64,000 bases of DNA, taken from the NCBI RefSeq assembly GCF_007741495.1, contig NZ_CP036262.1, positions 3,782,001-3,846,000 on the forward strand. Direction: 5' to 3'. Within the stretch, counting starts at the first letter, position 1. The number at the start of each line of letters is the position of its first letter. Under the pieces are notes generated by a model. That model saw only the letters and a list, made by a program, of their open reading frames with translations. It searched no databases and was not told the origin of the DNA. A program made the translations under genes and the position numbers. The DNA comes from Roseimaritima multifibrata. GTDB taxonomy: Bacteria; Planctomycetota; Planctomycetia; Pirellulales; Pirellulaceae. Shown here piece by piece: positions 24,606 through 27,809 of this stretch.

Positions 24606-24787
24606 AGGACGTGCGATTTATAAGTTGGCGGTTTTCGAGCGGATTGCAGTGGTGTGGCAAAAGACCAAAATCCCAACCCGCTGCGTCAGCGAGGGATAGC
24701 GGCCTGTTCTTTCCGTCCCTCGCCTACGCAGCAGGTTAGGGGCTTGGCTGCCGGCGACTCATTCGCAAGTTGTAAATTGCACGTGCC
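24606..24787. mobile_element. TIR element (family copy 2) with a palindromic core
   Basis: 182 bp. The left end is AGGACGTGCGATTTATAAGT and the complemented right end is GGCACGTGCAATTTACAACT. The core is a large imperfect palindrome whose arms carry AACCCGCTGCGTCAGCGAGG and a complementary version ending in GCAGCAGGTT. One frame of this palindrome reads PTRCVSEG, a peptide word I recall from many spurious planctomycete ORFs. The flanks GGCCC and GGGCC suggest insertion into a short palindrome. No coding sequence. Confidence 0.7.
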
Positions 24788-24867
24788 AAGGGCCGATACA
24801 AAAACAGAGGGGAATGCATCCAGATAACGCAACTTCAAAGCGCGTAAGCAAGGGATAGTAAGTACTG

Positions 24868-24905
24868 CACGCGATCCCTCGCTGACGCAGCGGGTTGGGA
24901 TCTTT
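24868..24905. repeat. Solitary half of the element-core repeat
   Basis: CCTCGCTGACGCAGCGGGTT in this stretch is the inverse of the core arm at about 24675-24697, including flanking bases (TTGGGATCTTTTG). It lacks the terminal repeats and is a fragment of the same palindrome family. Confidence 0.6.
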
Positions 24906-25475: not shown

Positions 25476-25516
25476 AAAAAAATCCTAAGCCGCCCCCAAA
25501 ATGGGAGCGGCCTAGG
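25476..25516 (-). terminator. Intrinsic terminator or attenuator just before the zinc-ribbon start codon
   Basis: On the minus strand CCTAGGCCGCTCCC (25503-25516) pairs with GGGGGCGGCTTAGG (25484-25497) in a 14-bp stem with two G-U pairs, followed by T7 (25476-25482). The ATG of the zinc-ribbon gene is only 11 nt further on. Confidence 0.88.
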
Positions 25517-25745
25517 AATTGTACCAGTGCATCAAGACGGACAATATGTCTGCCTCGATGCACCGCAAAAATTTCACTGAGAAGCGACCTGCCGAGACGA
25601 TTGACCCAGTAACCGTCGCCGCGAGGCCATTGTGCTTCTACCCAGGAGGAAGGCTAACAAACGATTCCCGCAAACCATTTGCTAACAGTGAAATTTCCAA
25701 AAGGTTCTGAATCTCTTGGGATATCGGAGAACTACCAAGTGGAAT
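25517..25745 (-). ncRNA. Candidate structured leader or small RNA
   Basis: No convincing ORF. Read on the minus strand, a perfect -35 TTGACA lies at 25753-25758 (the -10 is weak). The transcript could then fold as nested stems: AAATTTCACTG with CAGTGAAATTT closing a ~110-nt domain; GTTAGCAAATG with CGTTTGTTAGC inside it; GCGAC with GTCGC; then a ~17-bp hairpin with arms GTGCATCGAGGCAGACA and a complementary arm ending GATGCAC; then the terminator. I compared it with SRP, tmRNA, RNase P, 6S and common riboswitch motifs from memory and found no match. It is either an independent sRNA or a regulatory leader. Confidence 0.55.
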
Positions 25746-25935
25746 TCCGGGGTGTCAACCTGAAATTCTCGACAGAATGATTTTCGAACCGGCGGAAAAG
25801 ACCGCGGTTACCTGTATTTCCTGCGGGCGACGGCTTCTCAGGTTATGGAAAAAGGATCGTTCGGTTCCCTGATCGGCCTGTTCTTGGCAGTTCCGTTCGG
25901 TGCCCCTCCGCTCCCTATCCCCCCTTGTCCGCTGG

Positions 25936-25966: not shown

Positions 25967-26015
25967 GGCATAACCAAGCGACCATTCTCAACCTTTTTAC
26001 AGACCGAGTGCTTTG

Positions 26016-26516
26016 ATGGCTGATTTCAAACTTAAAGGAAATCCTTTCCACACCTGTGGCGATCTACCTTCGGTAGGTGCTGACGCTCCTGCGTTCTCGC
26101 TCGCAAAAATCGACTTGAACGAAACGACTCTTGCAGACTATGCCGGCAAACGCGTCGTCCTAAACATCTTCCCCAGCATTGACACGCCTACCTGTGCGAC
26201 CAGCGTTCAACGATTCAACGCGGAAGCCAACAGCTTGGACAACACGGTTGTGCTTTGCGTTTCCCGCGACCTTCCGTTTGCACAGAAGCGATTCTGTGGA
26301 GCCGAGGGCCTGGATAACGTGGTATCGGCTTCCGATTTCCGCAGTGGTGATTTTGGCCGCACCTACGGCGTTCAAATCGAAGACGGCCCGCTTGCTGGCC
26401 TGCTGGCACGGTCGGTTGTTGTGATCGACGAAAACGGAAAAGTCGTCCACTCGCAACTGGTCGAAGAAACCGCTGACGAACCAAACTACGACGCCGCTTT
26501 GGCAACGCTTCGCTAG
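26016..26516 (+). CDS. tpx: Thiol peroxidase Tpx (atypical 2-Cys peroxiredoxin)
   Basis: 166 residues from ATG 26016; an in-frame TTG one codon earlier is not needed. The peroxidatic Cys60 is in TPTCATS and the resolving Cys94 in KRFCGAEG, the Tpx spacing. [13 protein letters not shown] near the start and [16 protein letters not shown] near the end are family blocks. It reduces peroxides with thioredoxin. Monocistronic, with its own terminator; convergent with the potassium-channel gene. Confidence 0.96.
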
Positions 26517-26642: not shown

Positions 26643-27602
26643 CTAATCACGTGGCAAACGTGTGCCGCAGCGATGGCAAAATATGGCTCGCTTCAATTGC
26701 ACATTCTCTTCGCAGGCAGGGCAGGTTATGTCTCCGATTTCCCCCCGCGATGCAGACTGCGCATCCGTACAATCAGCGGACTTTTTGATCTGCTTGCGGG
26801 TCTCATTGAATTCAGCGCTAACAAAACCGGTCGGGACAATGATCAGACTGTATCCCAGCAGGATCAGTGCCGCACTAATGATCTTTCCGACGGTCGTCTC
26901 AGGTACGATGTCTCCGTAGCCAACGGTGGTCATCGTGACAATCGCCCAGTACATCGACTGCGGAATCGAATCGAATTTCGAATCGACCACCGCATCGGGA
27001 TGGGTCTTCTGATATGGCGAATTCTCCACCTGATACATCAACGCGCCACTAATGGTTACAGCAACCATCACCACCGAAAGGAAGACAACGATCTTGCCTC
27101 GCGACCGCCAAATAACCTCCCCGAGGACATCGGCTTCGCTCATCAATCGCCACAGTTTCATGATCCTAAAGACCCGCAGCAAACGGACAGAGCGGAGAAT
27201 CACAAAAGCGTTCTGACGCATGGCCCCCAGTCCCACCAGCAGCGATGGAAGGAAACTTAGCAGATCGATCACGCCCCAAAAACTGAAGACGTATCGCAGC
27301 GGGCGACGGGTGCAATACAGACGCAGGACGTATTCGATCCCGAAGAGGATGGCAAAACCGATTTCACAGCGAAGGTACATGGCAACCTGCGCCTCGTCGT
27401 CGCGGACCGATGGCAGGGTCTCAAAAGCAACCACCGCGATACTACCGACGATCGCAAGCAACAAGATGATGTCGAACATTCGCCCCCAGTACGACTCGGC
27501 GCCAAAGATGATGTCATACATCGACTGACGGAGCCCCGGTTCAAGGGGTCGTTGGCGTTCCGGAGCGACTCGCCCTCGCCGCTTTAGTTTCACTTTCGAC
27601 AT
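26643..27602 (-). CDS. Voltage-gated potassium channel with C-terminal zinc ribbon
   Basis: 319 residues from the ATG at 27602. Six membrane segments are visible; S4 carries Arg/Lys at every third position (RSVRLLRVFRIMKLWR, 137-152), and the pore has the selectivity filter TVGYGD (226-231) before S6. After S6 a short linker leads to a zinc ribbon with Cys294/297 and Cys309/312. The Kv/KvAP-like architecture implies a tetrameric K+ channel in the inner membrane. The zinc ribbon tail is unusual for the family. A longer frame starts at 27659 but adds only an Arg-rich leader. Confidence 0.9.
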   Translation of the reverse strand: MSKVKLKRRGRVAPERQRPLEPGLRQSMYDIIFGAESYWGRMFDIILLLAIVGSIAVVAFETLPSVRDDEAQVAMYLRCEIGFAILFGIEYVLRLYCTRRPLRYVFSFWGVIDLLSFLPSLLVGLGAMRQNAFVILRSVRLLRVFRIMKLWRLMSEADVLGEVIWRSRGKIVVFLSVVMVAVTISGALMYQVENSPYQKTHPDAVVDSKFDSIPQSMYWAIVTMTTVGYGDIVPETTVGKIISAALILLGYSLIIVPTGFVSAEFNETRKQIKKSADCTDAQSASRGEIGDITCPACEENVQLKRAIFCHRCGTRLPRD

Positions 27603-27809
27603 CGGTAACTCTTTGCAAAAACGTCTTCGGACTGGACGACGGTGTCGTCCTCCCACCAAAACTGGAGCCGTCTGGTGAGCCTGGATTCCTTCCCAGGCAA
27701 CGGATGGCAGCCGAGCGGTTCCAATCGAATAGCCGGATTGTGGTCGGTCCGTTAGTAAAAGCTTAGAATAGCGTTTCCGTGGTCTTCGGAAACCGTGAAG
27801 AGGGGCAAG

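Follow-up and report, generated by a model that had tools for sequence, protein, structure and literature searches.

Planctomycetes possess an unusual and long-disputed cell wall, and their RNA biology has been little studied. Among the bacterial RNAs that invite comparison with the one described here, 6S RNA is a single long interrupted hairpin, and the mraW motif precedes the dcw cluster. Table 1 of a comparative-genomics study (PMC2864571) lists the mraW motif (RF01746) for Actinomycetales and a Rhodopirellula-1 motif for Proteobacteria and Planctomycetes; the latter has no Rfam number and is rated in that study as ambiguous as an RNA and probably cis-regulatory. A search of the open-licence literature found no description of a planctomycete RNA of the present kind and no second paper naming the Rhodopirellula-1 motif. 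Our locus lies on the minus strand of a 64,000-nucleotide stretch of contig NZ_CP036262.1 from Roseimaritima multifibrata, hereafter called the window. On comparative sequence grounds, it belongs to a real RNA family that is widespread in one class, nearly always single-copy, and new as far as this could be tested.

The initial annotation had described a structured leader RNA extending from a TTGACA box to a terminator. Its sequence and coordinates were correct, and folding upheld the structure. The 283-nt minus-strand region (25758-25476) reached −122.6 kcal/mol (z −8.25), and the predicted transcript of about 247 nt (25722-25476) reached −116.5 kcal/mol (z −9.22), far better than shuffled versions, 0 of 200 of which were as good in either case. 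The ends of this transcript are predicted from a promoter-like site and a U-tract. A −35-like TTGACA (25758-25753), 60 nt before the conserved core, is followed after 18 nt by a weak −10-like TAGTTC (25734-25729), which would place the transcription start near 25722. The minimum-energy and centroid structures of the predicted transcript agreed and showed independent domains. P1, a closing stem of 11 bp (5′ strand 25686-25696, 3′ strand 25569-25579), encloses P2, P3, and P4; P5 and then the terminator P6 with its U7 tail follow. P2 (25655-25684, 13 bp) carries the loop region UUGCGGGA, P3 (25640-25654, 4 bp) is a short hairpin with a CU-rich loop (CUCCCUCCU), and P4 (25580-25639) is a long, branched hairpin with the loop CUGGGUC. 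P1, P2, and P4 emerge from both the fold and covariation; P3 is drawn from the fold and varies in some lineages. This conserved core, P1 to P4, spans 25566-25698 as matched by a covariance model. On its 3′ side, P5 (25525-25565, 14+4 bp) is predicted by the fold, and P6 (25483-25517), an intrinsic terminator stem-loop of 16 pairs with a 3-nt loop, was found by the fold and by a terminator scan and leads into U7 at 25476-25482. All of the stems annotated at first were present in this fold, some with different lengths, the terminator having 16 pairs against the 14 bp noted.

The surroundings contain other features. A thiol peroxidase gene (NF001808) on the plus strand at 26013-26516 is divergent from the RNA, one intergenic region being common to both. 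The minus strand at 26643-27659 codes for an ion-channel protein (Ion_trans, Ion_trans_2) whose C terminus may contain a zinc ribbon, a match that falls short of the Pfam thresholds. An inverted repeat at 24667-24729 and 24842-24904 has 63-nt arms that are 83% complementary; each arm holds the exact 26-nt sequence TCCCTCGCTGACGCAGCGGGTTGGGA, and the repeat may represent a palindromic element of the dispersed kind.

When 60 genomes, among them that of the window, were searched at the nucleotide level, 21 had matches, chiefly in the P2 to P4 part. Alignment A1 was made with MAFFT from the window and 17 clear homologues; four of the 22 nucleotide matches (L017, L018, L021, and L022) were without the motifs and were omitted. 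Its consensus held 37 pairs, 28 of them with changes on both sides. In the window's genome, covariance model R1 matched a single place, the locus in question. For an independent test, the structure was taken from A1 and imposed on alignment A4, in which 77 homologues outside A1 and the window were aligned by sequence only; L168, L177, and L232 were left out of A4 because they repeat A1 members. Standard pairs made up 88.0% of the A4 cells, compared with 74.1% in shuffles and 39.5-48.0% with slid structures, although the 77 homologues had been found with R1, which favors sequences that keep its structure. Covariation among homologues, named as a check in the initial annotation, proved strong, with 502 cells changed on both sides against 163.5 in shuffles and 74-162 with slid structures. 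For both paired cells and two-sided cells, 0 of 500 shuffles reached the A4 values. One of the five measures was weaker, in that 28 pairs showed a two-sided change against 25.3 in shuffles, and 26 of 500 shuffles reached this number. A structure-fitted alignment gave 94.7% paired cells, a value that is higher as expected and comes from a set that included one chance row (L060).

This support was distributed unevenly over the structure. P1 was paired in 94.4% of the A4 cells and showed two-sided changes in 12 of 12 pairs, and P1, P2, and the tip of P4 were strongly supported by covariation. P3 and the base of P4 showed hardly any two-sided variation and hence carried little information, and the middle of P4, with a helix of at least 6 in 90/100 compared with a shuffled fraction of 0.56, was only somewhat better than shuffles. 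The GGG of the P2 loop and the UGGGUC of the P4 loop were invariant in 78 of 78 rows of A4. A P5-like hairpin of at least 11 pairs lay 3′ of the core in 148 of 152 loci, compared with 28 of 152 after shuffling. The P3 loop differed, as judged by eye, in L216, L222, L231, L237, and L241 and in a sister family (L056-L059). Anti-Shine-Dalgarno action by this loop (CUCCCUCCU) was not adopted as the core function because the P3 loop differs among loci while the P2 and P4 loops stay the same. Loop-loop pairing between P2 and P3 was considered by eye and is a candidate interaction, for which it should be kept in mind that an invariant loop cannot covary. We regard the molecule as almost certainly a functional RNA.

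The region had also been said to contain no open reading frame. This was nearly correct: the core is noncoding in homologues, and the exception is a frame from GTG 25563, an in-frame extension of the downstream gene that runs into the RNA. Among the homologue rows, no conserved open frame was found and no single frame stayed open in all of them; 32 of 99 lacked an open frame altogether. The spacing of the loop motifs kept to no fixed multiple of three, where spacings of 25-28 arise from a second CUGGGU in P3 and are to be disregarded. A protein-coding gene was ruled out by this variable spacing together with the absence of a common open frame.

The family was then delimited by its matches in wider genome sets. 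R1 matched 156 of 246 genomes of the order Pirellulales, with one match each; the 90 genomes without a match may reflect loss, divergence, or missing contigs. Family f8 of this order was not represented in the matched rows and may have lost the RNA or carry it in changed form. A second model, R2, built from 100 sequences, matched 164 of 347 genomes of the class Planctomycetia, in single copy except for one genome (G696) with two matches. A contamination of 4% is listed for G696, which may therefore be a mixed bin. Across 294 genomes from the phylum, of which 21 are listed as class members, R2 matched 18, all of them within the class. R1 matched 9 of 246 phylum genomes, of which G389 (E 6.5e-4) alone does not belong to the class. 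The G389 match (locus L060) was judged to be due to chance, as the P2 loop is missing, and it was left out of A3. One carrier is Blastopirellula marina DSM 3645 (locus L066), which is in culture. A scan with the exact motif pattern over titled species genomes gave 102 stretches; of the 80 listed, 79 had planctomycete titles and one was titled only "bacterium". No proteobacterial title appeared among these 80 listed matches, where the single "bacterium" leaves its affiliation unspecified, and an exact pattern gave no match on viral contigs, which were scanned for phage carriage. This distribution bears on whether the RNA is the Rhodopirellula-1 motif of 2010 and thus already described in name. 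A motif so named is indeed listed for Planctomycetes, with no known function (PMC2864571). Compared by its table description only, however, it is rated ambiguous as an RNA and is set against strong covariation here, the only match of our models outside the class was the weak one in G389, and the listed pattern matches all bore planctomycete titles but one. We consider this identity highly improbable.

That the RNA fits no known class, as the initial annotation had it, was borne out by Rfam 15, none of whose 4227 families reached threshold in the window. Two sets of homologous loci, 16 searched at E up to 0.5 and 12 at E up to 0.1, gave only a subthreshold Acido-Lenti-1 match at a separate place. 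This match, at L003:1955-2001, lies near the RNA in a congener and is just under threshold (34 of 37 bits). NsiR1 and NsiR4 (RF02399 and RF02677) were rejected with E values of 0.014 and 2.2 and subthreshold scores of 25 of 39 and 14.4 of 40 bits, respectively; the likeness was confined to the terminator and its preceding bases, and the RNA core was unmatched. A very divergent form of a known RNA, such as 6S, SRP RNA, tmRNA, RNase P RNA, or another Rfam family, might be suspected because the RNA is single-copy, well structured, and long-conserved, as housekeeping RNAs are, and because 6S RNA (RF00013) gave no match in the window's genome. The other three were nevertheless located elsewhere in the same genome: SRP RNA (RF00169) at C1:1904731-1904825, and tmRNA (RF00023) and RNase P RNA (RF00010), both over their cutoffs, at C1:6869500-6869875 and C1:3642765-3643183. 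Matches to 6S RNA occurred in 10 of 60 relatives, 3 of them above threshold, and lay away from our RNA in all 7 in which both could be placed. Together with the Rfam results for the window and the 28 homologous loci, this makes a disguised known RNA extremely improbable. Across the order, 6S matches were weak and patchy, and Rfam may model the 6S RNA of this group poorly.

Gene neighborhoods were compared in 152 loci, which remained of 180 after repeats had been removed by shared core sequence, a step that possibly merged near relatives too. The set is biased, since a pattern in which the P3 loop is obligatory supplied 80 of the 180 loci. Genes were called crudely by codon usage and labeled by BLAST to five seeds, whose families by NCBIfam were MurF, MurE, MraY, MurG, and MurB. 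Of the 152 loci, 93 had a same-strand Mur ligase gene as their nearest upstream gene (56 MurE-like and 37 MurF-like); in the others, this gene was another same-strand gene (32), an opposite-strand gene (24), or not called (3). Nine upstream proteins were spot-checked: 5 passed the MurE cutoff, 3 were below it, and the ninth (L220, not labeled mur) gave no match at the threshold used. Downstream, the nearest gene was a same-strand murG (24), mraY (18), or murB (4) in 46 of 152 loci, another same-strand gene in 49, an opposite-strand gene in 42, and not called in 15. By the labels from these sequence comparisons, the RNA thus lay most commonly immediately 3′ of a Mur ligase gene, in which case mraY or murG often came next. 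These counts indicate that the RNA is usually linked, yet not bound, to peptidoglycan genes.

Terminators and promoter-like sites were scanned in the 146 loci with enough flank, 136 of which also had a called downstream gene. Intrinsic terminators followed the RNA in 52 of 146 loci, compared with 8.7 expected from shuffles. Where mur genes flanked the RNA both upstream and downstream, 7 of 41 loci had one (2.3 expected), against 41 of 90 elsewhere; this difference, with p 0.002, omits five loci whose only adjoining mur gene is downstream (terminator in 1 of 5). Of the 88 loci preceded by a Mur ligase, 2 had a promoter-like site (5.9 expected), compared with 18 of the other 58 (5.8 expected; p 9e-7). 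Both p-values are too good because the genomes are related. In statistical terms, most copies set between two mur genes lacked a terminator, nearly half of the other copies had one, and promoter-like sites were enriched in copies without a preceding Mur ligase. Two patterns were picked after the sites had been viewed: in 9 other loci, TTGACN-N18-TATTYC preceded the core by 50-56 nt, and in 4 more, GTGACA-N17-TATTTA preceded it by 77-81 nt, none of these loci following a Mur ligase. The window equivalent, TTGACA-N18-TAGTTC at 60 nt before the core, was missed by both scans, and the stock promoter scan of the window gave no sigma-70 match by its own rule; the −10 TAGTTC is poor.

These data allow the RNA to be read as a cis element of the mur operon, acting as an attenuator or in processing or stabilization between murE/murF and mraY/murG; the copy in the window's genus would then be a displaced relic or a reused element. 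Such an element would explain the frequent same-strand mur position and the low number of operon-internal terminators (7 of 41, 2.3 expected), and it would agree with the sister family f21, in which the RNA also lies 3′ of murF (L056, L057, and L059). It accounts less readily for the fold and both loops being kept at loci without an adjoining mur gene, for the enrichment of promoter-like sites in copies not following a Mur ligase, and for the opposite-strand downstream gene in 22 of the 82 loci where a Mur ligase lies upstream and a gene was called downstream. We therefore hold a cis element to be rather unlikely, though a serious contender. Independence from any one gene is further indicated by the opposite-strand genes downstream (42 of 152) and upstream (24 of 152). 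An autonomous RNA, rather than a cis-acting one, is the probable reading of the locus comparisons, tempered by the weak promoter-like site in the window, which both scans missed, and by the frequent mur position, which fits a cis role too.

In the window, the next gene on the minus strand (25464-25009) encodes a 151-aa protein with six CxxC pairs in its translation, as annotated, and with zf-dskA_traR (28.6 bits) as its top Pfam match. The terminator ends 11 nt before its ATG (25464), and no GGAGG-like site is visible in the 11 bases between U7 and the ATG; these initial observations also hold. They had led to the proposal of either a transcription-attenuation riboswitch for this gene or a stand-alone sRNA. 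Homologues of the zinc-protein gene were found in 30 of the 60 genomes searched, and in 21 of these, the window's own included, the RNA could be placed as well. The two were adjacent in only 3 of the 21, namely the window's genome (G000) and two congeners (G001 and G002), all of one genus. Of the rest, one genome (G028) had them 3 kb apart, 5 had them at least 89 kb apart on the same contig, and 12 had them on separate contigs. A third congener (G003, 82% complete) had no zinc gene beside the RNA but one judged by eye to be nadA-like because it resembles the NadA of the window. A ligand-sensing attenuator controlling the zinc-protein gene would suit the short distance from terminator to ATG and the zinc gene directly after the RNA in two congeners (L002 and L003). 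The RNA and the zinc gene, however, were not neighbors in 18 of the 21 genomes or in the third congener, and the terminator scan found no terminator in the congener loci L002, L003, and L004, the first two of which do have the zinc gene. The minimum-energy and centroid folds contained no antiterminator pairing to P6, and the downstream gene lay on the opposite strand in 42 of 152 loci. The riboswitch proposal is thus largely refuted by synteny, and we assign it next to no probability; the stand-alone option is the one favored. Synteny and the terminator-less L002 and L003 indicate that the RNA does not serve as a dedicated zinc-gene leader; we judge this gene to be a neighbor and not part of the RNA system. 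In the window, P6 would simply end the RNA ahead of this gene.

The simplest reading is that the RNA rides on the mur transcript in many species and forms its own transcription unit elsewhere. In many relatives, it would be made within the mur transcript and then cut out. In the window's genus, it would be an independent gene that starts near 25722 and ends at P6. An autonomous RNA of this kind could act in trans as a protein-bound or base-pairing RNA, with the two near-invariant G-rich loops, UUGCGGGA on P2 and CUGGGUC on P4, as the putative contact sites, and it is perhaps tuned to cell-wall synthesis. More tentatively, we propose as possible that a class-specific mur-operon RNA forms a conserved ribonucleoprotein linking peptidoglycan synthesis to another process, e.g., translation or division, and became an independent gene in lineages such as the window's genus. 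If this were true, the RNA would be of housekeeping type and without a known counterpart in other bacteria. Our claim of novelty concerns the RNA family and not its mechanism. The family offers a concrete new lead, a single-copy RNA retained in a large part of a class, frequently neighboring cell-wall genes and not represented in Rfam, and it comes with a searchable model and two testable loops.

Compared with described systems, the family resembles the orphan RNAs of comparative genomics, to the extent that the motifs of PMC2864571 represent them, in combining a covarying fold and conserved loops with no known function. It differs from these motifs in reaching no Rfam threshold and in being seen in one bacterial class only. 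With 6S RNA it shares a single copy, a structured form, and a similar length, whereas the window RNA is built on a branched core with three hairpins. The mraW motif is likewise a structured RNA beside cell-wall genes. The present RNA belongs to another phylum, gives no Rfam match, occupies another position in the cluster, and keeps its form away from cell-wall genes.
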